The position numbers and the translations under genes were made by a program. Source: Loxodes magnus (lineage: Eukaryota; Ciliophora; Karyorelictea; Loxodida; Loxodidae). Taken from it: DNA of 64,000 nt. Location of the stretch: the NCBI GenBank assembly GCA_946699065.1, contig CAMPDV010000193.1:248001-312000 (forward strand), read 5' to 3'. Shown here in pieces: positions 6,413 through 50,149 of the stretch. Within the stretch, counting starts at the first letter, position 1; each line of letters starts with the position of its first letter. Below the pieces are notes generated by a model. That model saw nothing but the letters and a program-made list of their open reading frames with translations, was not told the DNA's origin and did not search any database.

Positions 6413-8684
6413 TCATACTAGACTTCGCAAACTCAGTTATATATATTTTATCAAACTTGAAAGGTAAAAATATATAGTTTAAATGAATTAAGGTAAATAA
6501 AAAGTTAGTTAATTTATTTCGCCTTTTTTGATTGTTTTTATTATATGTGCTTCAGATGTTTTTTTGTCGACTTTGATAATTTTGTTGTACTTCCAGCTTC
6601 GACTAGAACATATTCAAGCGTAAATGAAATTACCTCTTACTTAAGGTGCGGTAAGATTCCAGCATTTTATTGGAAGACTATTTTCCTACCACTGAGATTT
6701 CTTTTTGGCATATATTTTTTTAGATTATTTCTTATTTTCTTGAATGTACCCTCCAAATACTATAAGTGGGTATAGAGAAACTGCTGTTCTGCTTAAGGGT
6801 TAAGGAAGCTTAAAGCTTAGTAATTATCATTCATCTTTATCTATTTTATACTTATAAATATCATCTATCGACTGCTTCAAAGCATTAATTCCACCAAAAG
6901 AGAATATATTTTTCTACTGCTCGTCACTTATTAAAGTTTAGTCACTTATCTCGAAAGGTAAATCAGTTATGCTTTTTCATTCGGCGTTTTCACATAGAAA
7001 CAACATTTCTGAGCTCTTTATTCTAGACCCATTTTAAACTCCTCCAGCAACATACAAGTGCTAATTAGCAATAGTAATGCCACATCTATCTCTATTTATA
7101 TTGAGGCTAGGTAACTATTTACAAGTTCCATTCATGCTAATTTACCATACAGAGTTAATTGATTTTTTCTTTATTTCCCCTCCAACTAAAAATATATTAT
7201 CTTCATATTAAATACTTTTAGAATACTATGGTATTGTCTATTAAACTTGAACTTGTTTGCATTTCCCATTTAATATGTAATAAATATGGAGGGTATTTGT
7301 TTTATCATCAAGTGTATAGATAAATTTAGAAACCTTTTTACTACTTTGATTAGAGTAACTTTAGGACTTCTCTATTTCAAACTCATTTTATTCTGAATTT
7401 TCCATATTTTCTTCTGTCTGTTGCTACTAAATCTACTCTTAGCAATCCGAATTTGAATCATTAGTATTAAGAATTTCTTCTTACTAACTAGAGCAATTTG
7501 ACATGTTGCTATTTGATTTTTTTAGTATGTTTATAACCTAATTATCAAAATCATTTTCAGTCTCTTCTTCTGTATTTACTTTTCATTAAGTTTAATTTTA
7601 TTTTTATTTTTATAAAGACTAGTTAAATTCTTATTCGTTCTATATTTACTATCTCTAAACTAATTCTATTTGCTACTTTAAATCCAATTTCTCTTCTTCA
7701 TTTTACTATAGAGTTACGTAAGCTCTAAATTTGTAATACTTACCTTCTTAATTCTTCTTCTAACTCTCTTATCCTTGCTTATTATTATTCGATTTTATAA
7801 CTATTTGCAGAAAGATCCTACTATAGAGAATTTATTTCCTATTTGAGTAATGTGCATTCTTATCAATTGTTTTAATCTGTTTAGCTTTCTTTTTCCTTTA
7901 AGTTAGCAATTTATTTATTTTAGCTTTCCTTTTTTTACTTTATTTGTTAATCTTTCTTTCCGTTTTAAAAGCAAATCACCTTGCTTTCAAGTAATTATCC
8001 TATAACACTTTGCTTAATGCTCTACTTTAACTATTGCTTGTCTAAATTTTAAACTATCTCTAGTTGCTTATCATTTCTTTAATTTTTTAACTAATCGATG
8101 TTTTAAATTTAGTTCTATGCCTCACAAATTTCTTAAATATCTTCATTTTTTATATTTAGTAGCTGATTAAATCGCTGGTTTAGATCTTATATTACTATAT
8201 TATTTATTTATTGTGTTTGCTGTTTTCTTTACATCATTTTTTTCATTTCACTTTGTAGTTATTTTTCAATAGTTGTGAGAAATTCGTTTCTTATTTCATC
8301 AACACAGTTTCTAAAGACGGCTTCTTAGCTTTGCAAAACTCGTATAGCTTGAATATTTTCCTTCAATATGTTCTACTTTTGATGATTTAACTACTGCTCA
8401 TACTGTTAAATACTTTACTCACATATAGATTTTATATCTTCAAAGGCATAGCAAATTTCCTCTATTTCACATTTCCCATGCTTAGCTAAACATTTGAAAC
8501 AAAGCAGTTAATTTTCCTTTTTACAATAAAATTAGCATTCCTTATCATGCGTCTCGCACTTTTTCTTAATATCCTATATCTAGCTAGACTCATCCAAGTA
8601 TATGCTTTGAGAAGCAATGCTTTCTAAATGTCTAAGACATATTTTACCCTTAGAGCATGGACAATTTCTAATTTGATCTTCCAT
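6413..8684 (-). CDS. B-box, coiled-coil, kelch-repeat protein (TRIM-like)
   Basis: About 750 residues. It begins with a cysteine pair region (residues 8-16), then a B-box zinc finger at about 48-75 (C-E-T-H-D-K-E-C, F-Y-C, L-L-C-F-K-C, H). Residues 80-330 form a long Gln/Glu/Lys coiled coil. The last 300 residues carry kelch-type repeats with V-G-G, V-A-G-G, F-G-G-I and F-G-G-Y turns followed by conserved tryptophans. A 19-nt intron (7725-7743, GTAAGT...TTTAG) is needed to keep the frame and is also present in the duplicate at 32 kb. TGA occurs in frame at several sites, including 6977 (N-A-E-W-K) and 6827 (D-K-D-E-W), exactly where kelch repeats carry W; reading through 6827 adds another blade, so I read it as Trp. 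The stop at 6413 is uncertain: the true end could be slightly earlier. The likely role is a protein scaffold or substrate adaptor; no RING finger is visible. Confidence 0.8.
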
Positions 8685-8998
8685 TAAAGGTCTAATTTCT
8701 AATATAATAAAAGTGAAAAAACACTATTCTAAACTTTAGTTATATACTAATTTACTTTGAGACTATACATTTAAAAATAAAATAACAGTTAAATACTTAA
8801 ATTTCTTTGTATAGTTGCTAGTTTCCTTTTCTGTTTCGTTCTTTTAATGCTCTTCTGTCTTATTTAATCAACTCTTAATATCTTAGCCAAGTTAGTTTCA
8901 GCTTTTAGTTTATTCCCTTTAAGCTTCAGTTGCTTATAAATCTTCTGCCTTTGATTATTTGAATGTCTACTCCTCCAATTAACAAATTGATGACCTCT
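7395..8998 (-). repeat. inverted repeat arm A (with 32,080-33,690)
   Basis: This 1.6 kb stretch recurs in reverse orientation at about 32,080-33,690 with only scattered differences and small indels. It covers the 5' flank, the B-box, the coiled coil and the intron of the B-box/kelch gene, but not the kelch blades. Retention of the intron shows a DNA-level duplication rather than retroposition. Confidence 0.9.
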
Positions 8999-12676: not shown

Positions 12677-15600
12677 ATGTAAGAACAAACTTAAGACTAT
12701 TGAATTGCATCTTCTAGTTTAGCGGAGTACGGATAAAGAGATATTGATAAAATGTCTTCTAATCTCAAAGGATTTCTGTAAATTAGCACTGAGCTGTAAA
12801 CTTCTCAACCTCTTAGTGGAGTTAATATTGCTTGTGTCATCCATATAAACTCCTTATCAGCTGTCTTCATTGAAGCTCTTAAAAATCTAGGAGCGAATGT
12901 ACAGTGTGCTGGTTGTAAATTTTTAAATACTGATGATAAAGCTGCTGCTTGCTTGGCTGTAAAGAAGATAGCTAAAGTTTTCTCCTTCAAGGGATAAAGC
13001 TACTAAGAATACTTCTAAAGTCTGAAGAGAGTTCTAGTGTTTTCTGGAGACTAAGGACCTGACTTGCTAATAGATGATTTAGGTGTTTTAGCTTAGTTTA
13101 TTCATATTTGCACCAAAGCAGAAGACTATTTCCTCTCTAATAGGGCAATACCTACTATTGAAAGCTTAGGGTTCCCGGAATTTTAATTAGAAGCGACAAT
13201 TAAAGTTTAGAAAACTTGATTAGCAAGCCTTAACGAATTTATCTAAGACTCTCTGAAAAAAGACTCTCTATATTTTAAAAGACACATAAAGAGCGTGATA
13301 GGCTGCATTGATAATACTCTATAAGGTTCTCAAGTAATTGAAGAAATATTCTAGACTCAAGGTTTGAACTTTCCATGCATTCAAATATACGATTTTATAA
13401 GAACCAGACACAGCATTCACAGAGTTCTCTCTTTTTATGTCCCAAATATGCTAAGTTCTATATAAGATAATCTTAATTTATAGGGAAAAACAATAGTAAT
13501 ATCTGAGTTTAGTGAATATGGAGAATAAATAGCTAATGCATTCAAAAACATAAAGGGTGTTAATATTATAGTCCCTGACAATTAATAGTATGTTTCAAGC
13601 ATTGCTAGTATGTAAGGATATATTACTAAGAACTTTTATCAGGCAATATAAGAAGCTGATATTGTTCTAATTGTAGGCAATCAAGAGTTCAAGGTTGAAC
13701 ACTTTGAGAGAATGAAGAATAACGCATTATTTGTAAACATCTAGAATGAGACCTAGAAGGCAGTCATTCAAGTTAATTTGCTCAAGAAGCTATAAGGAGT
13801 GAGATTTGAAGCAGTTAAGCCTGAGCTTACAAAATATACACTAAACAGTGGAAAGTAAATATACATCTTAGCAGAAGGAAAGATAATAAACATACCATGC
13901 TGCATAGCGGAACTGCCAGATCCTTAAGCTTCAGCAATATTTAAATCAACTTTATTATCTCTGATAGATTTAAAAAATAACTGAAAGGTAACTTATACAG
14001 AGAAAAAAGTATATTAGCTTTAGGTTGATATATAGGAGAAGTACCTACCATTTAATTAAAATAAGACATATATACTTAAAAATAATAAAATGGAAGCTTC
14101 TCAAAAATTAAGTTCCTCTTAGTAAGCTATTTCTCCAAGAGAAAACTCACCTCAGAAGTTTCTAGACTATAACCAGGAGAAAGTAGAAATAGAAGCGTTG
14201 AGGATGAAAGTGAAGAATATGGAAAAGTATATTAAGAAGATGGAATAAGTAGTTCCTAAGGAAGTCACCTATACTGATATAGTGGAGACTGTTGATATAG
14301 GTAATGAGAAATTAAACTAGCTGGAAAACTAAATAGATACTTATAGAAAAGTAATCGAAAGTCTTAGATTGAAAACGGAAGAACCTATTGACGTTTGGTC
14401 TATTTACTAACCAATGAGTCAAATTATATGGCTCTTATTCTAAAATATTGTGACTTCAGGGGACAAACAAATGATAGGTGAAACTAAAGCTTATATAGGA
14501 AGTGTCGATAGCTCATTATAAAGCATTAGCAGAGATTCTAATGCTAAGCTAATGATTAAAGGAGCTCAATAGAAACTAGAAGTGATGAAAGAGCTTTCCA
14601 ATAAACAGAAGTATTGCTTAAGTTAGCTTCAGCTGATTTAGAATGAAATCATTAACAAACTTCCTCCTAAGTATCATATTGATCCTATTAAAGACTAATG
14701 GTAAATGATCTAATATGAAACTTATATAAAAGATGTACTAGAGAAGCTGATAAAGGATAGAAAAATGCAGGATTATATAATGATTTAGATCGAAAGCGGA
14801 AAAACTTATGCCTTGGAGAAAGATTTTGACAATTTAGTGATTTTAATAAGGAAAATCATTCCTGAAATACTTGAGCTGACTGATATTCAGCTTTTATACT
14901 AGAAGCAAGCATCACTAACTATCTCTGAAGGATTTGACATTCTTAATCAAATCATTCGCCACCCAAAGTTTAGTAACGAGTAGTTCAGACTTCTAAGCTA
15001 ATCTATAGAGTCATTTTAAAAGATTTTCGAAAGAACAAAAATATAGTGGGACTTGGTAGGAAAATTATAGAATGAGAACGAACTATTTTAGCGAAAATTG
15101 CAAGAATTAGAGATGGAAATACTCAGACTATAAAAAACCGAATGGCCGCTATAAAAGAGAGAATGTAAGCCTCCTGTAATATCCAATCAGCATCAATAAA
15201 AAATAAATATTGACTTACTTTATAACAGAAACATACCAGAAGAAGATTGGATTACCAAGGAAAAGTTAGAGGGATATTACTAGTTTTTAAATAAAATCAT
15301 AAGGAAAGAACAGAAAAACATTTAATTCTTGGGAGGAGATGCAAATCAGGATCTAAACCAAATTTTTCCTGAATCAGCTAATATAAACAAAAGACTTAGT
15401 TCTTAACTTCAAGCAATGCTTAATATGCAACGCCAACATAATAACTTGCAGATGAAGTTTTTGCAGGAAAGCTAGAAAACCTATTGTCTTCTCACTAAAT
15501 CCTCAAATTTACCAACAGATCTACTACTTCTAGAGTAAGAAAAGAGGAATATTGCAAGTAGATTGAATACAGAATTTTCATTAATGAAGGCAAAGTATGA

Positions 15601-18600
15601 TGAAATACTAACTAAGCAGGAAAAAGATTTAATTATCATCATTTCTGAAAGGGATCGATTGCTAAAGCAGCTATAAGATGATTCTTAAATAAGGTAAAAA
15701 GAAAATGAAGTAACGAGATTTGCTAAAATGATGAGCGAAAAAGATTTCGATCTTTTAAAGCTAAAAGAACAGTTTAGAAGTATTTCAGAGGAGAATGAAT
15801 TTCTTAAGTAGAAGGTAATATAGCACTTGAATATCCAGCTCAATGAAATAAAGAATACATCTTAACTTATTGAAAGAGAGCAGCAAATAAATGAAATCAT
15901 TTTGAAGAAAAAACTAAATGATTCCTAGAAGACTCCTATTATTTAAATTGAAGATGGCTTTTTAACATGTGTGGAATGCCTTGACTGCATTAAGAATGCA
16001 TTAAACTTGCTGAAGATTGAAAGTCAAGATACCCTTGATAGCCTAAGAGGAGCAAATATTCCTACTTATAGTCAACTTTTCGTTTTAGAGGTTAGGAAAA
16101 AAGAAGTAACGAAGGATTTCTAAGCAAGGATTAGAGAATTGAATGAAGAGATATAAAAGCTTAAATTACTTATTGCTGAAAAGGAAAATCAAATAAAAGA
16201 GCTGAACACTAGAATTTTGGTATTTGAGGAATAAAGGAAGTAGTTTGATGTCTAGAAGAGAGAATTGGAGTAGAAGATTAAGATACTACAGTAATAAATT
16301 GACCAACTTAAAACTGAAAGCATCAATCTATCAGTGACTAATAAATAAGTGGAATAAAGATTTTCTTAGCTTCAAAAGTAAATAAACGAGCTTAACTCAG
16401 AGCTAGAAAGATTGAAGATTGTCATTTAGTAAAAAGAGAATGAAATAAAAGAACAAATTAAGATCAAAATATAACTTGAAAATGAAATTAACCAGAAGAT
16501 AGTGGAAATTAAGGAGACTTAATAGAAATGTGATTAGATAAAAATCTAATTTAGATAGGCTCAGATCTAGGTTTAGGACCTGGAAATTAAAAATATTCAG
16601 TTACAAACTGACCTACAGAACAAAAATTGTGAGTTCTAAAGCTAGATAAAGCAGCTTGAAAATAAATTAGACACTTAAAGTCAAGAGATTAGTAGATATC
16701 AGTCAAGTGAAATTGAAAAGGTAAAAGAGAATGCTGATATAAAACTGAAAGTCGAGTTTCTTTAAAAAGAGATAAATAACTTATAGAGATAGCTTGAAGT
16801 ACTTCGAAAAGAGAAACAAAATACTGAATTTTTGGAGAAGGAATCTAAATATGTCTAACTATTGGCAGAAAAGGATGCTCATATCCAAGAATTAGCTACT
16901 AGATTATAAGGCTAATAACCTAACTAAGAAAACATAAAATAGCTATAGTAATTTATTATAGAACTAGAGTGCAAAAATGGAAATCTAATGTAAGAAGTGT
17001 AGAAATTGACTCTTAAAGCTAATAATTACGTATAAACACTGCATTAGCTAGAAGACTTGAAAAAATAGTTATAAAACTAAGATTTAACTCAGGATAAATC
17101 TCTTTTAGTTAATCAATATAGCGAGAAAAGCTAGGCATTGCAGCTAGAAAATTCCAAACTGTTGACTCAAACTTAGAATCTTGATAAGCATATATTGCAG
17201 CAGTAAAATAAGTTAGCCTAGTTTGAAAAAGAGATTTACTAATTGAGGGAGTAATTGAATGAGAAAAAAATTATGCAAAATAAGCTCGAAAGACAGATCT
17301 AAGAATATAAAATAGAATTAGAAGCTAGTGAATTATAAAACTCTAATCTCAAGTTAGATTTATAAAAGTGGACTACTAAGTCAAGTAATGCTCTAAAAAT
17401 GTAAGACACTCTCAATCAATCTCTTTATCAAAGTGCTAACTCTGTCAAATCTGAGAGAATCTGGTATGATTTAATGGATAAAATCAAACTAGAAAAAGCT
17501 CAAGCTATTTAAAGCAATGTTCTAATAGAGAAGACTAGGTTGTTATAAGAATCTCCAATGAGTCAATAAGCTGTTTTTCAGATTTTTGAAGAGTTCATGG
17601 ATGAAAAGTTTAGAGATGATTAGAAGTTAATAAGAACAAGGTCTATGCCTGATTTTATGCTGGAATTCTTATCTAGTAAAGGTTAAATTTCCCAACATTT
17701 ATCTATTCTAGCCTAACTATTAGCTAGTCTTAAACTAATGTGCTCTTCTAATCAAGAATATGGAATACTATTTGCTAAAATTTTGTAAGTTTACCATTAG
17801 AACCCCGTAGATCTAATCCTATGCGAATTTTTAGTGCTCATAAGAAAGCAATTCCAAGATAAACTGACATATTACTAAAGCTAAAGCTTAGTAAAGTAAA
17901 GCTTGTAGTAGTAAGAAAGAGGAGGCATGCTACCATTTAATGATGTCTTTGACTTAATACAGGATAACTTTATAAATGATAACATTGCTGCTTTACATAT
18001 TATGACTAAAGTAAAGCCTGACGCAATTCCTAAGGCTGAGTTTTTACTCTACATTATTATATGCAAGATGAATAAGCTAAATCTTAATCCTAAGAAACTT
18101 TACGCTTAACTGGACACTAATATGAGTGGATTCCTAAGTATAGAGGAATTCGTAGAAGGACTAAACAAACATTTGGATTTGTGGTTTGAAACTGAAGAGT
18201 TAGAGAATTTGATTGAATACGTTGATGACAATAGCTCAGGACTAATATCTTTTAATGAGTTTAGTAGTAAAATAGAGGAAGTAATAAGTCACAAAGGAAA
18301 CTAATAGTAAGCCTATTTAGTATCTAAATGTAAATTTTTAACTGCCATATGTGATGAGTATGAAGAGAAAAGAGAAAGGGACTATTAAATCTTGCAGAGC
18401 ATCTTCAATTAAGCTTCTCTTAATAGAGATAGAACAATGTCCTTTAAAGAGTTCGAGAAGCAATGCTAGCAAATACAACAAAACTTGCAAAGAGAAAAAA
18501 TCAAATAAATGTTTGATAATTATTAAGATCAAATGAATGGAGAACTCACAGGAAAAATAAATCAAGATTCCTTTATTCTAACTCTATATGTAAATGAAAT

Positions 18601-20267
18601 TGGAGGATTTGGCTTTGGAGATTTTAGTAACTTTTATTACTTTAGAATCGCCTAGAAAGAGAATTATTTCATAGGAATTTAGCGAGAAAGATAGCTGGTA
18701 TTGAGATTTACCAATTTTCTAAATTTAATTCATAAATCATTAAACTAATTTGCTTTGAACCTTCTTCCGTTATTATCTCAGAAAACGCCTTTTATTAGTA
18801 TATCCTTTTATGGTTAAGCTAATTTAAAAATAAAGCATCTTCTTGCTATTCTTACTTTAAGTAGTCTCAATTATACCTAAGGCCAAAATCTCAGCTTTAG
18901 GCTACTAATTATTCTTATTATGTGAGAGTAGTTGAGATAGAGGTTTGCTAATAAGATAAATATTCAAAGCTTTTAATTTTTTACTGAAGAAACTTGTAAA
19001 AAGCTTGGTATTTTTTAGTTTAAACCTGCTAATCTAAGATAAATGTCAAATCTCTTTTATGACAAACTAAACAACTAAGAAATCCAAATTCTGCAAAACT
19101 ACGCAGAAAGAGGTAAGTTTAAATAATAGGTTAGTCTAATAATGTGAGTCATAGCTAAAAAAGAGCATAGAAAGTGACTATAATGAATTTTAAGAGACTA
19201 CTAAGTTTCCTGAGTATAAAACCTATTAGACTTATTAAGATCCTCATTTTCAATCTATTCGAGAAAAGCCTCCTCTTTGGTCACCAAACTAATTTGATAC
19301 TGAAAATATGCTATCTCCCTCTAGTCTGCCTCCTAGATATACTCCTTGCTAGAAATAAAAAACAGAACTTACAAAATCAGATTTATTTACTCCCTAATCT
19401 TAGTTTGAATCTGAAGCTATGCAAAAGATAGACAACCTGCTGATGTAGTTGGAACTTGAATCAAAAAGTAGAAAAAAGGCCTACGAGGAACAAGTATAAT
19501 AATAGAAAATTTTAAGGAAAGAGTCAAAATCCTCTGTAAAAGAGAAGAAGTAAGAAAGAAAGTGAAGCTTTGAAAAGTAAAATGATGAATGGTCCTTTAA
19601 TAAAAGGAAATATCCTAAGACTGCTTTGTAAAGTGATTCTGAATTAAACATCAAATCTTCCAGTCTTAGACCTTTTAAGGAAAGAGTAAAGAAACAAAAG
19701 AATTAGTCCCTTAGAAAATCGAGAAAAAAATCTTCTGGAAGAGTTGGCTCTTCAAGTCCTGTTTTGAAGAGAGCTAGTGAAAGGAAGAAAAAACACACAC
19801 TATCTTCTCCTTTACTGAGAAATGAACTTATTAGAGAAAAATTTAAGTAGAACAAACCTTTATCCTCAAGTAGGTCATTAAGGAAAAACTCCTCATATGA
19901 ATAATCGACTTTCAGCGAAAAAATAAAAAAACAGTTTAAAGAAAGTTAACCTCGCAGAAAAAAGAGTAGAAGCAAAAAAAGCGAAACGCTAATGACACAG
20001 AAAGAGCAATTATAAGAATTAAAAAAGCTATGCAAAATAATTAAGGAGCACTGCAAAATTTGCCCTCGATTAAGAAATACAATAAAGTTGGCTGGAGGAT
20101 TTAGAGTGCTAGATCTATATTAAAATACTGATATTTAGCATAAAATTTAAAGTTATTTAGCTTTCTTAGGAAATTCTATCAAGCTTTGCTATTAAAGTAT
20201 TAAAAACTATTTAAGGAAAATAGGTTTATAAACTATTAAACGTTAAAGTAAACAAGAGCAAAACTGA
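12677..20267 (+). CDS. giant SAHH-like pseudoenzyme, coiled coil, EF hands
   Basis: About 2,520 residues, read as 12,677-19,112 joined to 19,135-20,267 across a 22-nt GTAAGT...TTAG intron. Residues 1-450 resemble S-adenosylhomocysteine hydrolase from end to end: start region L-A-E-Y-G-Q-R-D-I, then C-V-I-H-I-N (the histidine is kept), N-T-D-D-K-A-A-A, F-S-F-K-G, L-L-I-D-D-L-G, and H-F-E-R-M-K-N-N-A-L. However the GGD after DD, the EE-TTTG loop, the K...D pair, the GxGxxG NAD turn (here E-F-S-E-Y-G-E) and the GHFDxEI motif are replaced, so catalysis is unlikely. Residues 480-1,700 are coiled coil. EF hands follow at about 18,112 (D-T-N-M-S-G-F-L-S-I-E-E) and 18,223 (D-D-N-S-S-G-L-I-S-F-N-E). 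The tail is basic and Ser/Lys-rich. Only five in-frame TGA occur (12,701, 13,217, 13,982, 18,923, 19,563), all fitting Trp. Likely a calcium-regulated structural or cytoskeletal protein; the exact stop is uncertain. Confidence 0.8.
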
Positions 20268-33690: not shown

Positions 33691-36049
33691 AGAAAGTTAA
33701 TTCATTTTTTACGTTCTCAAAAGAGCTTACCCGAAGAATATAAGGAAAATTAAGAATTACTAAAAATTAACTATTTAACTTAATTAAATGAAATGAAAAC
33801 AATATTTACCATATAAAAATCTGCTTATAGATCAGACTCTAATTTTAAGTAAAAAAATACATTTATTCAATCTTTTAGTAATTCTCTCAGAATTGTTAAT
33901 TAATAATTCAAAATAATTTAGAAACTCAAGTAACATTAAATTAGTACAAATTGAATTAAATTTATTTCTTCTAAATTTACATATAAAGAAATGTAACTAT
34001 CTTGATTATAAATGCAGCTTTTATTAATTATGAGCAAAAATGTTAGAATTTGTTATTATACTTAAATATTTCACTAATGATTTCGAAGAAAAATAATATG
34101 ATTTTTATCTAAGTTTCTATTTATAATAATTAAAGAAATTCGAGTGATTATTGTAGAAAAATTTAAAATTACCAGATATTTTTAATTTTATTTTAGTGTA
34201 TTTAATAAATGATATGAATTTAAATAATGAAAATTAACTCTTAAGCATTGAATATAGTTAATATTTTTAATTTCTTTTAAGAGTAAAAATAAGATTGCAT
34301 AAAAAGATATTAATTTAAAATTAGATTTAGTTAAAGAAGTTATTTTAGTTATCTATTCTAATAAAATTTATATTTTTATAGCTTCTTTGATTATCCAAAA
34401 ATTAAACTTCTAAAATTCATTTTTAATAATATTTCTTAAAGCATTACAAGAAATCTTAATAATTAAAAGAATTTTAAATAAATTAAAGTTAATTTTTCAA
34501 ATATTTCAAAAACTATCACTAAAATGTTACTTCTAAAAATAGATAATGAAATAAACTTTTAACAGAAAAAAAAACTTCTAGTTTTTCATAATTACTGATC
34601 TTCAGACTCTTTTATTTTCTACCTCACTTTTCTTATAATTTTCCTCTCTTTTTAAACTTCTAGTTTTTCATAATTACTGATCTTCAGACTCTTTTACTAC
34701 TTATTTTTCATTTTTTATGTGTTTATCTTTTGCAAAATTATAATGTTTTTTTTTATGCTTGATTTTGATTCATACATAATTAAAATATTTTACATTTTTT
34801 ATTTATTTATGCTTTTTTTCTTTGTTTTTACTTCTTTTATTAATTAATTATATTTATTTATCGTATATTTTAAAAGATTAGTTTTTTCATTTAAAAGAAT
34901 TTTTCTATGCTTTTTCTTCTTTTATTAATTTTTTACGTGTATTTTTTCAATCTTCTTTTGTGATTTTTTTATTTTTTAAATTGGCGAAATTTTTTTGATC
35001 TTATTTTCAAGACGATTTCTGATTGCTTTTTTGCTTTTTATTTTAAAGCTTTTATATTGCAACGTCATAATTTTTTTACATTTACTTTTTTTTTATATTA
35101 ATTTTAATGCTTTATCTTTTTTTTTATTTAAAAAAAATTTTTTTTTGCGTTTTCCTTTTCCAATATTTTTTCTAGTATAAAATTTAGAAAAAAAAAGGCT
35201 TTTTTGATTATCCTTTTTTATTTCGAATTTTTTAAACTATTTTTTAGAACTTTTTTTTTAATTGTCACTGCTTTATAGCTTTTTATTTTTTTATTTATTT
35301 ATTCCTTCCTGAAAATCTTTTTTAGTGCAAAACTCTGATCAAAAAAAAGTTTTTACTTTTTTTTGCATACAAACAAGTTTTTTTTTCTTCTGATTTCCAA
35401 AATACATTTAAAAAAAATCTATGTTTAAAATTTTAAATTTATTCCGGCCGAAAAAATTCTTGCAGTGTAAAAAGTTGAGCAAAAAAACAAAATTAAATTT
35501 TTCACGGATTAATGCTTCAAATAATCTTTTTCGCCCTTATTTTTAGCTCTAAAATCAAAAAAAATTCCAAAACCCAATTCTTAAATTTTCGACGACCAAT
35601 ATTTTCAAATCCAACCTCAAAAAATTTCAAATTCAAAATCAAAATCAATAGCTGCCATATTTCAAAAACCCTTTTATACTTTAAAACTTTTTCTTAAAAA
35701 AATTATTCCTTTCTGACCCTCTACTTATCCCGAAATCCCCCGTCTTGTTCCGTACCAACTTACCCCTATAGTGTAAAACGCTGAGCAAAAAAAGGCTTTC
35801 ACTTTCTTTGCCATTTTCAAGGCTTCTAAACTCATAAAAATATTAAAAAAACAGTCAGAACCTTTTTTTATATCGAAAAATATTATTATTATAGAAATTA
35901 ATAAGAAATAATATAAAAATACTCACACTTGCTTAGAAAAAAACTTGGAAAAACTCCTAACACTTGAAATAATACAAATTAAAAAATAATAAACTCACTT
36001 AAAAAAAAAATCTGCTCACTACTTAAAAAAAAATCTTTATAAAATCTCA
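33691..36049. other. AT-rich sequence with strand-biased T tracts
   Basis: No gene seen. From about 34,600 to 35,600 the plus strand is dominated by long T and A runs. A 44-bp direct repeat is present at 34,571-34,614 and 34,654-34,697. Confidence 0.5.
34571..34697 (+). repeat. 44-bp direct repeat pair
   Basis: The word AAACTTCTAGTTTTTCATAA, continued by ATTACTGATCTTCAGACTC, occurs twice, identical over about 44 bases and 83 bases apart. Confidence 0.8.
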
Positions 36050-36440
36050 AATACTTCAAAAAAATTTCTAGACCCTTTTAAATAAAATATACTTCTTTAA
36101 AAAATCTTATATACTTCAAAAATTTTATCTAGACCCTTTTAAATTAAATACTTAGAAAATCTTTTATACTTCAAATTTTTTATCTAGACCCTTTTAAATA
36201 ATTAAATACTTATTTATTAAATCTTATAACCTCAAAATTTTTATCTAGACTCTTTTAAATAATTAAATACTTATAAAATCCTAAAGCTTCAAATATTTTA
36301 TCTAGACCCTTTTAAATAGATAAATACTTATAAAATCTTAAATACTTCAAATTTTTTATCTAGACCCTTTTAAATAATTAAATACTTAGAAAATCCAAAA
36401 GCTTCGAATATTTTACTAGACCCTTTAAATAAAATTATAA
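36050..36440 (+). repeat. minisatellite, about seven 57-bp units
   Basis: Seven copies of a unit of roughly 55-60 bases built around TCTAGACCCTTTTAAAT, each followed by an AAATACTT-like stretch and preceded by CTTCAAATTTTTTA-like sequence. It lies downstream of the kinase-WD40 gene. Confidence 0.85.
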
Positions 36441-36793: not shown

Positions 36794-38667
36794 TCATGTC
36801 GCTATCCTCCATTTCCTCAACACTCTGTCCTCACCACCAGATAATATCCACTTGTTGTCCACACTCAATGCCAATGCAAAAACAAATCCAGAATGCCCAG
36901 TCAATGTCTATATACACTCACCAGTATTAAAATTCCAAATTCTTAGAGTCGAATCATGTGAAGCCGATATTATAAAACCATTATCCGATGTTATTAAAGC
37001 TTTGTACACATAATTAGAATGTCCAACCAAAGTACGAATCAACTGTCCAGTCTGGAAATCCCAGACTTTTATTGTCTTATCTCTACTTGCAGAGACTATC
37101 CATTTCTGGTCCGGAGAGATCGCAATTGAGAAAACTCAGTCCGCATGTCCCGTAAAAGTCCTCAAACAGCTTCCAGTCTGGAAATCCCAGACTTTGATCG
37201 TCGTATCTCTACTTGCAGAGACAATCCATTTCTGATCCGGAGAGATCGCAATAGATACAACTGAGTTAGCATGTCCCGTACAAGTCCTCAAACAGCTTCC
37301 AGTCTGGAAATCCCAGACTTTGATCGTCGTATCTCTACTTGCAGAGATTATCCATTTCTGGTCCGGAGAGATCGCTATAGATATAACTGAGTCCGCATGT
37401 CCCGTACAAGTCCTCAAACAGCTTCCAGTCTGGAAATCCCAGACTTTGATCGTCGTATCTCTACTTGCAGAGACTATCCATTTCTGATCCGGAGAGATCG
37501 CTATAGAGTTAACTGAGTGCGTATGTCCCGTACAAGTCCTCAAACAGCTACCAGTCTGGAAATCCCAGACTTTGATCGTCTTATCAGAACTTGCAGAGAC
37601 TATCCATTTCTGGTCCGGAGAGATCGCTATAGAGTTAACTGAGTGCGTATGTCCCGTAAAAACTTAATCTAAATTAATGAATAATTACCTTGAGATTTGT
37701 CGTATCTTATTTCAAGTTGCTTTTTCTGCGAAGTTTAAGTTTATACAATTTCTTATTTTTAATTTTGCTGCTTAAGAAGAACTTTCGATTCTTCGACGTT
37801 TTCAAGTCTTAGATTTTATAACATTGGCTGAACATTTTCGATCGGTAATTCTTTTTTGGGAATTTGTTTTTTATTCAAGCTGGCTATTAACGAGTTTTGC
37901 AAGAATTCTAGCGTTGCTCTGTCGCTAGGATTTTATGCCCAACATTTTTCGATTAAAATTTTGTAATCTTAAGGACATTCCTCAGGCATGTCCTCTCTCT
38001 CACGAGCTTTGATACCTTCTCTTATCGACAAATCGTCAGCCTCTTTGTGAGGTATTTTTCTTGCTGCTATTTCCCAAAAAATGACTCCCAACGCGAATAT
38101 ATCAGATTGCTTACTATACTTTGGCTTCATACACATTAACTCTGGCGCCATCCAACGAATATTACCCACCTAACTAGTGAATTCTTAGGACCTTGATTCA
38201 ACCCTTATTGTCGATAAGCCAAAATCAGTTAACTTAGCTTTTAATTAAACGTCTAACAATACGTTGTTGCTCTTTAGATCTCTGTGGATAATATTTTTAC
38301 TGTGGATATGCTCTAAACCCATAACTATCTCTATACTTATCTTGTAACGTAGATTCCAATCTAATTGTTAATTGTTATGCAACAAATCAAACAGATTGTA
38401 CGGCAAGTATTCCATTACCAAACATAAAGGCTAAGGACAGTATCCATATAGTTAAACTATGTTTGGATGATGCAATTTCTAGGCTATTGATATCTCCTAA
38501 TCTAACTCTTCCCTTGCTACCTGAGAAATACTTTAATTGTATAACTCTTTTATCGCCACTTCAGCAAAACCCTACATTAGCCCTTTATAAACTATTCCAA
38601 AACCTCCCTTAGCTATCTCTTGAACTTTTTGAATTTTTGATGCTTGTATCAAGTATTCTTACTCCAT
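36794..38667 (-). CDS. TKL-type protein kinase fused to WD40 propeller
   Basis: A 617-residue protein. Residues 10-270 are a complete kinase: G-G-F-G-I-V-Y-K-G loop (21-29), V-A-I-K-E (lysine about 40), H-R-D-L-K-S-N-N, D-F-G-L-S and W-M-A-P-E, with the R-W-M-A-P-E and C-W features of TKL/RIPK-like kinases. A Gln/Lys linker (about 285-325) follows. Then come seven WD40 repeats to the TGA at 36,794. Repeats 1-5 differ at only a few positions of 42, mostly just after G-H (T-H-S-V-N, T-H-S-V-N, A-D-S-V-I, A-N-S-V-V, A-D-W-V-F) and in the A-S-x-D-x-T-I turn; repeats 6 and 7 are divergent. A 20-nt intron (37,669-37,688) joins linker and propeller and is required by the frame. A TGA at 37,136 is read as Trp in G-H-A-D-W-V. 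Likely an intracellular signalling receptor or sensor; the ligand is unknown. Confidence 0.9.
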
Positions 38668-41530
38668 TATCGAAACGATTTTTTATAATTTTTTTTGAAA
38701 TTTAATCTTAAAAATAGAAAAAATACCAGAATTTAATAATATTTATTTAAACCTAAAATAAACAAAAATTTTTGGAAATTAAAATTTTAGATTAACAAAA
38801 TGAAATTAATTTAAGAAAAAAACGATACAAACCAAAATAAATTGATAAATAGGTTATACTCTGTGATCAAACATAAAAATTAACTTAGCAAAACAAATTT
38901 TGTTCAAAACAAAAAAACGCAATGAAACAAAAAGAATCTAACAGATAATCATTAAATTAAATAAAATTAAAAATGGACAGTAAATAAATTAACTAACTTC
39001 ATTAGTAAAACAATTAATTAAATAAAAATAGAAAAAATATTTAATATGCCTTTAACTTTTTTATTTAAAAATTTAACAACAATTTTATATAATGAAATTA
39101 ACACCTATTTCGTGATATAGCAGAATCAATGAAAAAAATTAATAATGCAATGAATAGTAGAAATTTTAAGTTTTTAATTACTTCACTCTAATTATAAATT
39201 AAAGAACAAGACCTTTAAATTTTAATAACTAAGATTATAAAAAACGAAAACATAAACTAATATATTTATTTTACCAAAACTTTGAACTGCCTTAATTCTA
39301 AAAAAACACTTTCAAAAATCACTTTATAGATAAAACATTACAACTATTAGGTAAATAATTTTAAAGTAAATTAGCAAACTTAATAAAATTCTTTTGAAAC
39401 ATTATACATATATGAGCTTTATCAATTAGATAAGTCTTAAACTAAAATTAAGAAAGATAAATCAAATAAATAAAAACAATCATACAAAAAAAATTAATGA
39501 ACAACCTTATATATAAGAGTAAACTATTTCAAATAATATTAAACAGAAATGAATTCATTAAAACCATAAATAATTAACAATAAATTCAATAATAAAATGT
39601 TAAAACTTAAAATGGTTCGATGAAGAAGAAGATTAAATATAATTTAGTTTCCTTTAAAAAAAATAATAGACTAATCTTAAATTCAATTGTAGAATGATTA
39701 TGCTGCTATATTCTATAAATAATTAAAATTGTAATATATGAAACATACAAAATATTTAAAAATCATAAATATTATAAGCCTAAGTAGAATAAAATTAAAA
39801 AGCTTTTATCTTTAACAAATAAGTTAATGATTCAACAATTAATAAATAAATAAATAATTCACTTTTTTAAAAATGTTTATGATCTTTTAAATATAATAAG
39901 AATATTTAGGTAACTAAAAATACTAAATCTATAATAATTAATAGTTTAGAATTCTTAATAAACATTTAAACTTAAATATACCTACGATGAAAATCCTCAA
40001 GCAAATTAATTAAAAATCTAAAATATTTTCATTACGACTCTAAAGAAGTTCATTAAACGATAAAATTCAAGAGATATTAAAATCAAAAAAGAATTAATAT
40101 AGATTCTAAAATCATAAAATAGAGAAAACAGATTAATAGTAAAAATCACTTTTTTAAAAACTTTTAAATTATTAAGATAATAAAATGGAAATTAGATTAT
40201 TAAATTAAAACTAACTTATCTAAAAAAAAAGTTGACTACATTTAATAGCTTTTATCCATCATGCTTTCTTAAAACTCTCATCTAAAAGAATTAACCTTTT
40301 ATAATGATACACTTAAGAAAATTATAATAGTTATGGAAATAAAATCTTTATTAGTTAAAAAAAATTGAATATTTTTAACATTTGACTTTTATTTAGTTAA
40401 TTACATAATTCATAAGCAAAATATAAAGAAATAATTCTTTAAAAATAAATTGCTTTTATCTCTTTTTTGTTAAAAATTGAAGTTCAAAATTTTTGCTAAC
40501 TTCGATTCTTAAGGGCGTTAATTAAATAAACATTAAATATAATATAAAAAGAGAAGAAAAGAGAAAAAATAAAAGTTGCTATGAGAATGATATCATTTAT
40601 TAAGAAGTAAATTGTTCTAAAAAAACATAAATAAATTAAAAGAACATGATGCTGATGTTTTCAATATTGTAGCTCTAACTAAATTATTTTTAACCTTTAG
40701 ATCGTCATTTTTATACGTTATACCAAGACTATTTGCAATAAATTTAAAATAATTATTTTAAGTTATATTTGTAAAAGAAAGCTCCTTTTGAGTTCATTTC
40801 TTAAGGACCTGAAAATTTTGAATAACTAATAAATTTAAAAGAATTGCTAAATATATATAGGCTACTTGCTACCTTCTTGTCATTTAATATGAAACAATAT
40901 AAATCTTTTATAAATAAGCCTGCAATAAGGTTGTATAAACATAGCTCTTTAGACTAATTTTAAGATAAAATGAATAAATTAGTAATAATAAAGATAATCT
41001 TTAAAGCATATCTATGAGATCATTTTGCAAGCTTAATAATAATGTAAAGATATAAAAAACAAAAGAAAGAAGAGCTAAATAATTAATATTAGATACTAAC
41101 TTTAGAGTTTCAAGATGCAATAAGAACTATATAAGAATTAGACTAATGAAGCTGAACTACTAAGGGAAATCATTTAGAAATAATAACAAAAGAAACTACT
41201 TAAAATGAAACCTTGTTTAATTTTAACTGTACTATGATTATTAGTAGTCACATTAATAATTGAATGATTAACTTTAAAAGCTGAACTCAAAGGTTAAGCA
41301 AGTATTAATTTATCCTATTACTATTTATGTAAGTTATTAAAATCCATTATTTATGCATTAATTCAACTTTCACTTTATAAATAAAAATATCTTAAGTTTG
41401 AGGGAAATTATATAAAAAAAGGCATAGAGTTACTTTAATTATTAATCAGCTAAGCTAGTGCATAATAATACTTTACTAGACTTTTAAAAATTTCTATCCC
41501 ATAAAATCAAAATAAGATTAAGATAAAGAG
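38668..41530. other. very AT-rich sequence, no gene seen
   Basis: Nearly three kilobases with no convincing frame or motif. Confidence 0.4.
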
Positions 41531-42820
41531 ATGAAGATATTTAGTAAGACAGTGTATAGTAACCTCAGTAAGAGTGTTAAGAACCAATTTATAGCTTAAA
41601 GATTGACTTAACATTTTAAGACTTAAGTAGTCATCTCATTATTCTAAAGCTTCAGTTCCTCCTTGTATTTTTTTAACTTTTTTGAGATAGGTAGCTCAGA
41701 TTAAGTCTTATTGAGGAAATAAAGATTTTACCCAGTATAGCAGAAATTAATTACTTCAATCATTTTATTGAAGATAAATAGAAAAATAGTTAAAGCTAGA
41801 ATTAAAAAATACTTGGCAGGATGACAAGACTTGAGATTGAAAAAATTGATAAAATATTTACTTTGAAATGTCTAAGATAACTAAGCTAAAAAGAGCTAAA
41901 ATTAAACAAAAAGACTAAGCATCATAAAATTGATCTAAGAAAGAAAATTCTTATTAATTAGTACTAACTGGTAAGTATTTTACAAGGAAATTTGAGAACA
42001 TTGCAAATTAGAATTTTTGAAGCATAGATTTATAGAAATTTAAGAAATCTAACTAGTTGTCCATTTTCATAAGCTAAGTAAAGAAAAATTTTAGATTCTT
42101 GAAGATTAAAAGAAGAGAAAATTTCAATTAAAAGGCATTAATATGTTGGTAAGCGTGAGGAAATTAAAAATCTAATTAAGAGAAAATCTTACTTTTGGTA
42201 TTGTGTCTTTACTAACTATCCTTGATTTATAATTAATAATCTAACTTTTCAAGCAAAAAAAACAGCTATCCTCTGAAACGATCAAACACCAAGAGAAGAA
42301 AGTCATTAGAGGTATATATTTCCTGGATATAGGAGGACTACTTAAGAATTTTATTTTTAAAGAGAATAGCCTTTCTTTGCAGATTCTTTTAGCTAATTGT
42401 GTAGATGTCTGCCAAAAATTTGTAAAGCAAAATTTGATTAATCTCATCTTCTTAGAAGAATAGTTAAAGCAGAAAGCAGTTTAGCAGAGTATATAAATAC
42501 TTAGATAAATGTTTCTTTCCGATAAGCTGTGAGAATAAAGACTAAGCTTAATAAGAATGTAAGTGTGCTTACTTAAAATGAATAGCTCAGGGCTAATAAA
42601 TATAGAAACGAAAACTAAGATTGCTAAGCTATTCAAAGATAGCAAGATAAGAATACGTTAAACTTAATGGAAATTTCTAGAACTTCAGTCAATAACCTAG
42701 GAAGAATAAATAGTTGAGTCGAAGAATCTATAGCTCAATAAATTCTTTAATAGAAACAATTTTTATTAACTAAATAACAGAACTAAAAAAGCGAATTTCA
42801 ACTTAAATTTATCGCCTTGA
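41531..42820 (+). CDS. possible AT-rich gene, unknown protein
   Basis: A frame of 429 codons from ATG to TGA at 42,818 with four in-frame TGA (41,822, 41,864, 41,993, 42,530), against five and thirteen in the other plus frames, so the coding signal is weak. The translation is Lys/Leu/Gln-rich and includes N-R-K-I-V-K-A-R-I-K-K-Y, K-E-I-W-E-H-C-K-L-E-F and S-V-R-K-L-K; it could be helical with IQ-like basic segments, but no family is recognised. I list it because it is the best candidate in a 10 kb stretch, with low trust. Confidence 0.25.
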
Positions 42821-45800: not shown

Positions 45801-48800
45801 TGCTTTTTACTGAGTATTTTATGTATTTGATGTTCCGTCAAAGTTTATACATTATCCTCTCAATCAATTTTATTTCTCTTTTAGCTTCAATAATTTCCAG
45901 TATTTGTTAAAAAAGTCTGGAAGAATAAATTGTTTATTTAGGGTTGAGTAGTTTTTTATGTTTATTATTTATCCTTATCACTCTGATTTGTTAACTCTGA
46001 TTTTTTATCTCTTTAATATCTTAAACTTAATCATTAGTTCTAAGTTGAGAGAAATTAAGTCCATTTCTCAGTCAGCTTATGAAGAGCTAAGAGTAAATAA
46101 GAATCATAAGTTGATCTCTAAGTTTTCTATTTTTTCAACTGTATCTTTTATTTTTATTTAAAGTGAAATAAGTAAGCTTGGCTAATACAATTAGAGCATT
46201 ATTTGATTAGTAATAACTATAGCATTATTTAAGCATTACTTAATTTCTTTAATTAAATAGCCTTCTACTATTTATTATTAAGCTTTAGTTCAAATTTTTT
46301 ATTAGATCTCTTTTATTAATCTTTAGTCTCATTATTTATGTTTCTTAATTACGTTTAACTATTATATTATTAAAGTGAGAAATTAGTTCTTTGCTTCTTA
46401 ATTAATATAATGCTATTATTAGTTACTAAAAGAGAGATATAGAAGCATATGATAATCTATTGAGTTAATTAAAAGGTTATAAATAGAGCTTATTATAAGA
46501 GTTTAAAGGAATAGATTTATTAATTTAATTAAATAGATACCCAACACTGTTTCTTCTTTTATCTTTCCAAACTTTTTATTTAACTCCCTCTATTCATAAT
46601 TTCTTTTAGGTTCGATAGATCTGAGTTTTGACTTTTGAAGTTTCTGGTATTTAAATTCTTATTTCCAGTTATTGCCACAAACCATTTCAATGCTTTCAGA
46701 TATTTCCTATCAATTAGCTTGCAGCTTTATTATAGCTTTCCTCTAATTAATTTTTGGATGCTAAACAATTTACTATCAAAGGAATTAACTCGAGGCTTGC
46801 TATTAATAGTCTCCTGTTTCTTATAACTGCAAAGGTTAAAAATTTTCAAGCGATCCTTTAGTTTCTTTCCAGATAATCTTTTCTACTTTCACTCTAACCA
46901 TTTAGCTACTAAAGCCTTTTTCTAGCAGTGGGATACTTTATCTTCTATAAAGTTATTTAGAATTAAGGATTTAACTAGATAGTATAATTCTCTTAAGATA
47001 ACGACTTTAAGCTCTTTTATTCCTATTCATATTTAACTAAAATTAAATCAGATACTAAATAAAGTATATAATAGGACACCAACAAAATTAAACGAAGGAT
47101 GAGTATTTTAATTACAGTAATACTTTACTCAAGAAGAGTATTTTTAGAAGATAGAGAACACTAGAAAGAAATAAAGAAGCATTAATAGGATAAATTAGAT
47201 AATTAGTTTTATGCGAAGCAATAAATAGCTAAGCTTTTGGAAATTAGAACTTTTAATTAAGATATTTTATGGAATTTTTACTTTATGCTAGATACTAAAT
47301 TTCAGCGTCTTGTAATTGATGAAACTAACATAAAAAGATAAAAATTTCTATTAGATGAAGAAATTTTGGTTATAATGGATTGATAAAGGAGATAGAAAAA
47401 AGGTTATAAGAATAAGAAGATGAGAAGAGCAATACTCAAGAAACAGCCGAAGACTTTTATCAAAATAAAAAGCGCTTTTATGTGTTTTAGTTTAAAGAAC
47501 AATATGAAGGCTCTGTGTAACCATTGATCAGGTAGAGATATAATGGCTACTATTACATTAGAATTAAAAGGTTGTATTAATGAAGGTTTCTTAAACTGTT
47601 TATAATAAATAGTGATATTAGATACCTAGCATGTGTAACTATAGTATTATTAAATGAAAGTATGTTCTATGTAGATCTATAAACACATGCATAAATAATT
47701 AAATTTTTCTATATAGAGAAAATCAATTTTTTGAGTTGAAATAACAAAAAAACCATAAATAGTTTCTTAGTTAACTCCTAAAAAAATAGGAAAAAAGATT
47801 TAAAATTTGAAATCATAATTTTTAAGATAGTTAGGAAATTAATACTTTATAAATGAATAATCAAATTTAAATTAGTTAGAGAAATAACAAAAAGATGTAA
47901 AAGCTAAAAATTAAATCTTCTAAATAAAAAACTAGGCTTAGGAAGTAAAATCATAAGACTTTTTTATACATAAAACTTGAATAGTTATTATAAAATTGAA
48001 TAGAGTCTATAGATATAAAAAGAGAAATCACAATAAAAATATATTAGTAAAATGTAAGGTAAATATATAAATTTCTAGGTTTTCAATGCTAATAACTTAG
48101 TCACTCTTAATACAGAGAAGATTTCTAAACAATGGAAATTTAAATATCACAAAGATTATAATACTTCAAAAATTAGATAATCACTTGCTTAAATTACAAC
48201 CTTTTGCATTCATTTAGTTTCAATATCTAAAGGAATAGACAAATATTCCTTTGCTTTAAATGAAATATTTTCTTCGGATTTTAAATAAACTTGAGCGAAT
48301 TCATAAAGATAAAGTTAGATTGGCAATAATAAGAAATAATATTAAAAGGCAAAAAATAAAGAAAAAAGAAGATATTGATTTAAATATACCCTTTAAAAGT
48401 AAATTTGAAACAAATCTATTATTTAAATAATAGCTAATTCGCAAGGATAAAAGAACCTTTTAAGTCTCTAGCTATTAATTTAATATTAAACGATGAATAT
48501 TACAAATCTAAATTGGATAAAGATGATCATTTTAGATCGAAATAAAAAAACTTAGATGTATTTATCAAGATTTAAGAAAAATCATCTAGTTTAATATTTA
48601 AATATATCTTGTAAGACTTATCATTAACTTTGAATATGCTAAAGTTTAATAAATGAAGGAAAACTTAATCATTATGAATCAACTTATGAACAAGATATAA
48701 TAAGAAATGTTAAGGATCAAATTATTATTAATATAATCATTAATTTTCTATAAAAAGAAAAATTAAAATCTATAGATTCAAAGTGATTTACTAAAATAAG

Positions 48801-49260
48801 CTAAATTGAAAATAAAGAAAAACTTTCAATATTTATTTATAAGCAATCTAAATATCAATAAAATAGAAAAAGTAAATCAAAGTATTAAAAAAGTAATAAA
48901 GTATAACAAAAGTTTATGAAATTTAGAAAGTAGTTTATAAAGTTTTTAAAATAAAAAATTCGTAAAAAGCCATTTGCTTAAGATTTTGTTTTCTAAAAAA
49001 AAATAAATAAAGAGCTGAAAAAAAACAAAAAGCAACCAATAAAAGGGAAATAAGTCTTAAAATAAAAATAAAAATTTTTAATATTAAAAAAATATGATTG
49101 TGATAAAAGTTAAAAAATTATATCGTTAGATGTGTTAAAGGCTTTAAATGAAAAAAATTAAAATAAAAAAAAGTAAAAACTTTTTAGAAAAAAAATTGTT
49201 AAAAATGTAGAAAAATTAAAAAAAAAAAACCTTGAGATTAAAAAAAATACGTAAAGAAAT
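42821..49260. other. very AT-rich sequence, no supported gene
   Basis: Long open frames can be drawn here, notably 45,958-47,615, but TGA codons are evenly spread over the three frames (six to eight each over 540 codons), which argues against coding. Nothing else is seen. Confidence 0.4.
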
Positions 49261-49434
49261 CCCGAACTTTGGTCGTCTTATCTAAACTTGCAGAGACAAT
49301 CCATTTCTGATCCGGAGAGATCGCTATAGATCCAACTCAGTCCGCATGTCCAGTACAAGTCCTCAAACAGCTTCCAGTCTGGAAATCCCAGACTTTGATC
49401 GTCTTATCTAAACTTGCAGAGACAATCCATTTCT
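49261..49434 (-). pseudogene. orphan WD40 repeat cassette
   Basis: About 174 bases, 1.4 repeat units, nearly identical to repeats 1-5 of the kinase-WD40 gene and in the same orientation. The minus strand reads [11 protein letters not shown], then G-H-A-D-W-V-G-S-I-A, then [11 protein letters not shown] again, so it carries its own variants (S-L-D-K-T, W-V-G). The flanks are AT-rich and unrelated to a WD40 gene. It is either a dispersed fragment or a reservoir for gene conversion. Confidence 0.85.
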
Positions 49435-50149
49435 TCGGCTTTAAAAAAAAATATAAATTTCAGCAATTTTATTATTATAATATTACTTTGAGTAAAAAAT
49501 AAAAAAAAACTAATTTCATTTTATCAGACTTATTTTAATCAAAGCTAACTTCCTAAGATTGATAAAGTAGTCAAACTTTCTTTATGAATTTCTCAAGAAA
49601 AAATTTTAATTTCTCGGTTTAAAAATAAAAAGATTTGAATGAATTCTCAAATTGAAAAGAAGAAAATTTTCAAGTACTTTTACGTGAATTATTAGGGTAA
49701 AGAGCATAAATATGTTTTGTAATTAGAATTAAATTTTACATATAAATATTTTACATGATTAATCTAAATAATTATACAATTATGTTCCAATATTCAAATT
49801 ATTTAAATTTTAATCTATCATTATTATGTTTATGTTGAATTTTTTTGTTATCAAAACTAATATATGACTTTAGAAGGTTTTTATTTATAATAATATTTTG
49901 TAGAGATCTTACTGATAACTATAATATATATTTCTAAGCAATTTCTTTAATTATTATACATAAATAAAAAGTCACCTAAGAAATAATCTTCTCTGGGCTC
50001 ATCTATTAAATACAAAAGGAATAATCTAACCTATCAGATTAATTCCCTCAATAAGCTTAAGAAAAATAATCTAAGTAAGTTTACTCAGAATAAACGCAGC
50101 AACGAATAACTAATGTACAATTCGAATAAAAATAGAAAAGATAAAGGAT
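49435..50149. other. AT-rich sequence, no gene seen
   Basis: Nothing recognisable between the WD40 fragment and the first copy of the 50/55 kb repeat family. Confidence 0.4.

Follow-up and report, generated by a model that had tools for sequence, protein, structure and literature searches.

Kinase–WD40 genes of Loxodes magnus combine homogenised propeller blades with diversified top-face residues

Described counterparts and the Loxodes locus

The closest described systems are the HNWD genes of Podospora anserina (HET-E, HET-D and HET-R), built of highly identical 42-residue (126-bp) WD40 units in which four codons, 7, 9, 25 and 27, are positively selected (PMC2873952, cited here, like the other papers, for particular passages); these variable codons form two pairs that are reshuffled (PMC2873952, PMC12222747). 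Functional alleles usually have 11 repeats according to passages of PMC12222747, and ten NWD genes are counted in Podospora (PMC4986451). Diversity at binding hot spots is known more widely among highly repetitive WD40 proteins (Hu et al. 2017; PMC5587647). Kinase–WD40 fusions are frequent in some bacteria and are described as rarer in eukaryotes (PMC5587647, PMC11032199): Thermomonospora, Planctomycetota and cyanobacteria carry a Ser/Thr kinase and WD40 repeats in one protein, with large expansions, and in Uabimicrobium these are mostly membrane proteins whose WD40 part is predicted to be periplasmic (PMC11032199). Among ciliates, the 90-bp-exon LRR genes of Tetrahymena form a family of thousands of young repeat-unit genes, with ectopic recombination between units and a pericentromeric and subtelomeric concentration (PMC6564038).

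The locus described here lies in a window of 64,000 nucleotides, positions 248001-312000 of contig C193 of the L. magnus MAC assembly (706 Mbp; PMC11441545), which we searched as 705,730,643 bases in 7,843 contigs. L. magnus uses genetic code table 27, in which UAA and UAG are read as Gln and UGA as Trp or stop (PMC11441545). The gene shares with HNWD genes the 42-residue unit, high unit identity and overlapping residue sets. In contrast to them it has a TKL-like kinase and neither a NACHT/NOD nor a HET domain, its last two blades are not homogenised, its family mostly has one seven-bladed propeller in place of 11 repeats and is accompanied by long blade arrays, and Trp is encoded by UGA. Like the bacterial fusions it joins kinase and WD40 in one protein and belongs to a large expansion; like the Tetrahymena LRR genes it belongs to a ciliate family of repeat-unit genes, whereas the LRR units are split by introns and the passages of PMC6564038 concerned contain neither a kinase–WD40 fusion nor a top-face codon pattern. 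In the open-licence literature searched, which comprises neither subscription papers nor preprints, we found no description of this family: a search on karyorelict WD40 proteins gave no paper, ciliate kinome papers with WD40 included none that was relevant by title and start of abstract, the one paper that turned up on protist allorecognition with WD40 and a kinase domain concerned plant NLRs, and the main text of the L. magnus genome paper (PMC11441545) mentions neither WD40 nor kinase. The gene family, the part played by UGA and the upstream blade arrays are new beyond the first-pass annotation of this DNA.

Gene structure, use of UGA and family size

The gene occupies window positions 38667 to 36794 on the minus strand (the strand of all of its features given below) and encodes a product of 617 amino acids. 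Translation with TAA and TAG read as Gln runs from an ATG at 38667 to a TGA (36794..36796) that follows ...KWRIAT and has a counterpart at this place in the other genes, and these are the very ends that the first-pass annotation had proposed. Exon 1 (37689..38667) carries the TKL-like protein kinase and a linker, and exon 2 (36797..37668) the seven-bladed WD40 propeller. Because the two parts occupy different reading frames an intron is needed between them, and we place it at 37669..37688 (20 nt, GT...TTTAG); L. magnus introns have a mean length of 19.3 bp (PMC11441545). As predicted from the genes alone, a short GT..AG intron sits at the identical position in all 24 genes read, the window gene counted. 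A Pfam scan of the 617-aa protein returned the kinase and WD40 domains alone and no NACHT/NOD domain; since the NOD domain is absent, the protein is not an NLR. The mean hydropathy over 19 residues peaks at only 1.34, so that no transmembrane stretch is predicted, which sets the protein apart from those of Uabimicrobium. The gene had no match in a plasmid collection.

Two further open frames in the window lie on the plus strand, one of 1611 codons (14090-18925, table 6) whose residues 1336-1392 match an EF-hand pair and one (1159-2394) with a match to a C2H2 zinc finger. Scans of the window for tRNA (bacterial settings) and Rfam families gave no match.

The kinase had been called complete and of TKL type. 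It is indeed complete, as PK_Tyr_Ser-Thr (PF07714, E 1.1e-56) covers 2-258 of 258, PF00069 scores E 1e-54, and the AIK lysine, HRDLKSNN, DFG and APE are present in 20 of 20 aligned kinases, the window gene among them. Membership in the TKL group is likely rather than proven, because the closest PDB kinase sequences (a top entry labelled EGFR, then CTR1, B-raf, ABL1, Roco4 and MLK) include ABL1 and the EGFR-labelled entry besides TKL kinases. Kinase dN/dS was 0.04-0.42 across the 24 listed pairs with dS <0.9, two of which duplicate others (L011 and L012 gave identical values), and by this measure the kinase is under purifying selection.

The WD40 part, in which Pfam PF00400 recognises seven stretches (E 1.3e-85), comprises six units of 126 bp and a last one of 35 codons. 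Units 1 (37532..37657), 2 (37406..37531), 3 (37280..37405) and 4 (37154..37279) are homogenised, as is unit 5 (37028..37153) save for its last six codons; units 6 (36902..37027) and 7 (36797..36901) are not. Units 1-5 are 81-95% identical to one another in DNA, as against 45-52% for units 6 and 7 compared with the others, and TRF reports 4.9 copies at 93% match; the first five repeats are thus nearly identical in DNA, as had been noted from the letters alone. High internal identity and hot-spot diversity are features of the Hu et al. proteins too (PMC5587647), for which the identity cut-off is 0.7; the protein described here differs from that set in being a eukaryotic kinase fusion and in having an identity of 0.86 over blades 1-5 and 0.62 over all seven. 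One of 24 genes (L028) reaches 0.71 over all blades; these values are our own pairwise means, and Hu et al. may have calculated theirs differently.

Unit 5 contains an in-frame TGA (37136..37138) at hot spot R1-2. This codon would be a stop under table 6, yet UGA also reads as Trp here, and the residues A-D-W read by the first-pass annotation hold. In the 24 genes read (one duplicate included, each gene tallied up to its penultimate blade), unit positions 18 and 31 carry TGG or TGA 199 times, in 49 cases TGA, and since these are conserved Trp sites the TGA of unit 5 is most likely Trp as well. At the other positions the usage is skewed: gene units have 13 TGA at position 6 and 10 at position 8, neither with any TGG, and 12 TGA to 3 TGG at position 24. 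In the blade arrays described below, Trp at codons 6, 8 and 42 is always TGA (703 TGA, 0 TGG) and Trp at codons 18 and 31 nearly always TGG. That the in-frame TGA codons mark pseudogenes, and the family decaying repeat DNA, is scarcely credible. TGA is admittedly the sole stop of this code, and it occurs 555 times at positions 6 and 8 among 1087 array units; against this stand its occurrence at conserved Trp sites, the Trp reading in table 27 (passages of PMC11441545) and the purifying selection on the kinase. We reject the pseudogene label for the genes on the grounds of these Trp sites and kinase constraint; it does fit the arrays.

A search of the genome with the kinase gave at least 117 matches, a lower bound (117 of 4,382 candidates were scored) that may include haplotype copies, compared with the ten NWD genes of Podospora. 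For 24 of these matches, among them the window gene (L009), the WD40 part was read, and every one of them has the order kinase, intron, WD40, with seven blades in 22 genes, five in one and nine in one. A degenerate blade signature, which may recur within one gene and also in other WD40 genes, had 992 matches in the genome, and its reversed control had 0. The central units of L011 and L012 are identical, and the blades of L020, L022, L023 and L024 are diverged, with a mean central DNA identity of 0.56-0.76. On contigs C1503, C462, C4046, C6979, C9, C620 and C119 the kinase genes lie about 0.4-8 kb from the contig start, which points to a subtelomeric location or to contigs that broke at repeats. 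Kinase matches on C1078, C2078 and C5589 have the same coordinates (7997-8767) and scores and may be haplotype copies or repeated contig ends.

Distribution of variation over the propeller

An AlphaFold2 model made with 20 paralogues (pLDDT 97.3, pTM 0.93) has seven sheets, with strands a, b, c and d at unit positions 7-12, 18-23, 27-32 and 38-43, and the residues H3, S21, D25 and W31 of the D-H-S-W tetrad are nearly invariant among units. The best Foldseek matches were designed and natural seven-bladed propellers; these included a WD40 domain of Thermomonospora (5yzv, rank 3) and 2YMU, a highly repetitive propeller that is also the best PDB sequence match to the WD40 domain. We take 5yzv to belong to the kinase PkwA.

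Within units 1-5 the residues that differ are 4, 5, 6, 8, 20 (V/I, one unit), 24, 26, 37-39 (unit 5 only) and 42. The first-pass annotation had held that the repeats vary only at the binding face. The concentration there stands; the word "only" does not, given position 20, the tail of unit 5 and silent differences. In the model the variable positions map to the d-a and b-c loops and to the point where strand a begins. Top-face hot spots published for WD40 proteins are R1-2, R1 and D-1, located by a (V,L,I)-R1-R2-(V,L,I) fingerprint and the tetrad Asp (passages of PMC3419727); V7-x-S9-I10 fits the fingerprint and D25 the tetrad Asp, so that positions 6, 8 and 24 are R1-2, R1 and D-1 by this rule. 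Strand positions in the model and the published rule, on which the face assignment is based, thus agree with the earlier suggestion that the variable residues lie on one face.

Codon differences between units were counted within 19 of the 24 genes (four diverged genes and one duplicate set aside) over 194 unit pairs and codons 1-36. Positions 5, 6, 8, 24 and 26 account for 580 of 920 non-synonymous differences and for 10 of 379 synonymous ones. Positions 8 and 24 vary in all 19 genes, position 6 in 18, 5 in 14, 26 in 13 and 4 in 7, the highest counts being those of 24 (149), 8 (146) and 6 (111), and the opposite-face loops (13-17 and 33-36) are far less variable. A check for positive selection, which had been asked of this locus, gave a within-gene pN/pS of 2.10 at positions 6, 8, 24 and 26 against 0.28 at the remaining positions, from pairs that share units. 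The Fisher p of 3e-79 overstates certainty, because the 194 unit pairs, like the 13 gene pairs below, share units and genes, and recombination inflates selection tests.

Close paralogues of this one genome, compared in place of strains, gave a similar picture. In 13 pairs (kinase dS 0.042-0.206), the five variable positions hold different residues in 200 of 325 comparisons (62%), individual pairs ranging from 40 to 84%, as against 57 of 2015 elsewhere in blades 1-5 (2.8%). Blades 6-7 of the same pairs differ at 64 of 130 variable residues, and shuffling of homogenised units is therefore not the sole source of the variation.

One way to read these patterns is that the variable positions are merely unconstrained surface, the rest being homogenised by unit exchange, with no selection for recognition. 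Loops can accept substitutions, tandem units are easily homogenised, and recombination biases tests for selection, all of which would fit. We nevertheless consider this reading distinctly unlikely: at the variable codons synonymous changes are rare while amino acid changes are common, the variable residues have diverged this far at a kinase dS of just 0.04-0.21, they have done so in the non-homogenised blades 6-7 too, and the loops on the opposite face are far less variable.

Also unlikely is a set of internal signalling or scaffolding proteins in which each propeller has a different endogenous partner and paralogues specialise outside any arms race. Top-face hot spots serve protein partners generally (PMC3419727), and passages of PMC11032199 describe large lineage-specific kinase–WD40 families with no immune role shown for them. 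The divergence of close paralogues at 40-84% of their variable residues is, however, difficult to reconcile with long-lived specialised partners, and the blades inside one gene differ as well.

We favour, with a probability of about 0.7, a family of soluble recognition kinases that resemble the HNWD proteins by convergence and are not NLRs. The parallel drawn earlier with the fungal HET/NWD proteins holds for the homogenised units and for the diversified codons with their equal 2/16/2 spacing, by which codons 6, 8, 24 and 26 would correspond to HNWD codons 7, 9, 25 and 27. By this analogy the sensor, a seven-bladed WD40 propeller, would work like that of the HNWD NLRs, with the N-terminal TKL-like kinase as its output. 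Unit exchange (concerted evolution) would keep blades 1-5 near-identical, blades 6-7 lying outside it, and selection would diversify a small number of top-face sites in each blade (R1-2, R1, D-1, D+1 and position 5). We propose that these diversified residues make the binding surface of the propeller combinatorial. The kinase might then be switched or localised when a variable molecule of non-self, prey, symbiont or mating-partner origin is bound, and it is in this sense that we infer a receptor.

Blade arrays upstream of the kinase genes

Blade units also occur outside the genes. A 29-base unit core has 3,633 exact copies in the genome (449 + 3,184), against 0 for the reversed control. One array extends on C9 from about 16.3 to 81.6 kb (stretches covered: 14.9-16.4, 22-52 and 70-90 kb). 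On C620 array was present in each of the stretches 15.9-16.2, 28-38, 70-98, 158-166 and 170-180 kb and would measure about 160 kb if continuous; further array lies in C1832 (44-70 kb), the last 7.5 kb of C119 and C6957 (1-7 kb).

The window has a remnant of about 1.5 blade units on the minus strand (49250..49435 by hmmsearch, 49256-49434 by BLAST), 10.6 kb upstream of the gene's ATG, at the site that long arrays occupy at other loci. Its 3' flank (47771..49108, minus strand) is 88% identical over 1352 bp to the flank of the C9 array. This flank has at least 45 genome matches listed (40 of 93 candidates scored), and of 43 flank pieces tested 30 could be paired with a listed kinase (28 kinases), lying upstream of it at no more than 20 kb, and 13 are unpaired. 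Among the paired pieces 29 are on the same strand as the kinase (27 kinases) and one is on the opposite strand; for the 27 same-strand kinases the nearer piece lies 8.7-10.2 kb away in 25 cases and 14 kb away in two. At the five loci compared (the window, C9, C620, one of three on C87, and C512) the blade DNA has one common 3' boundary, the fragment measuring about one unit at C87 and C512. The common boundary and the pairing of flank and kinase indicate that the duplicated locus includes a captured blade fragment, which was expanded in some copies and, on the mechanism we propose, would there have reached array lengths of tens of kb or more. The upstream DNA at 39712-41258 and 41470-41680 is 82-91% identical to that of the C512 paralogue (L034, 1-1779), so that the duplication of the locus reached beyond the gene. 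Just downstream of the gene (36037-36435) is a 57-bp AT-rich tandem array, and similar DNA lies downstream of the C87, C9 and C620 paralogues.

We compared 1,087 array units (1,054 once 33 far from the consensus were dropped). Codons 5, 6, 8, 24, 26 and 42 hold 65% of the nucleotide variation on 14% of the sites. At the variable sites the array alleles mostly recur in the genes; codons 1, 2, 9 and 22 vary as well, at their silent third bases (27-43%). Rare variants at the other codons, in 1,037 units, number 26 non-synonymous to 7 synonymous on 82.7 to 25.3 sites, as expected if selection were absent. Common variants (33 to 24) look as if inherited from selected genes, and the variable codons have 23 to 1. 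A higher-order repeat of period 7 was not borne out, lag 7 being the lowest of lags 1-30 in 0 of 8 stretches, with weak minima at other lags, and adenine mutagenesis of the DGR kind is unsupported, as all three bases vary at array codons 8 and 24.

Could the long arrays be giant coding genes with hundreds of blades? Runs of 223, 207, 61 and 56 units with no change of frame in the stretches covered would allow it. The C9 array, however, begins and ends mid-unit in A/T-rich DNA, and no kinase or final blades were seen at either of its ends; frame-shifted units have been multiplied, the same +1 shift recurring in 17 units on C9 and the same -1 shift in 19 on C620 (a possible assembly error); and the rare variants have the neutral-like ratio given above. 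For these reasons we reject giant genes as very improbable, and the arrays apparently behave as non-coding DNA.

Exchange between arrays and genes is a further matter. Central units 1-3 of the five in the C9 gene are identical (126/126) to units of the C9 array, and the longest exact stretch common to the two is 251 bp. Units of the C620 gene stand 5-15 bases from the nearest array unit and those of the window gene 6-17; for the C1832 gene the distance is 1-14, and the closest unit does not always come from its own array. In the C620 array neighbouring codons are linked and distant blocks (1-9, 22-26 and 42) nearly independent; this independence is not general, since linkage between blocks is stronger in the C9 array (0.14-0.50 for most pairs).

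Silent cassettes diversify antigens and immunoglobulins, and they would be the counterpart of conversion from a blade library, which here would act on an intracellular kinase. It is possible, though doubtful, that each locus couples a recognition-kinase gene to a silent upstream library of blades from which gene conversion renews the binding face, the library itself recombining inside units. Non-coding-like blade DNA lies upstream at the five loci compared, and units 1-3 of the C9 gene match its array, an identity that is neutral as to direction. With UAA and UAG read as Gln and UGA as Trp inside genes, such arrays could drift without acquiring nonsense codons, and the Trp reading of UGA places Trp one base from the binding-face codons TCA, TTA and AGA, and from TGT at 42.

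If the favoured reading of a soluble recognition-kinase family is correct, the principle of the fungal HNWD proteins, a fixed scaffold with a few diversified top-face codons, would exist with a kinase output in a karyorelict ciliate. The family makes it testable whether protists own diversified recognition receptors and suggests which residues per blade determine specificity. It would bring together in one system blade arrays, gene conversion and a code without a dedicated stop codon, and part of the L. magnus DNA that is filed as low-complexity tandem repeat may be sensor blades.
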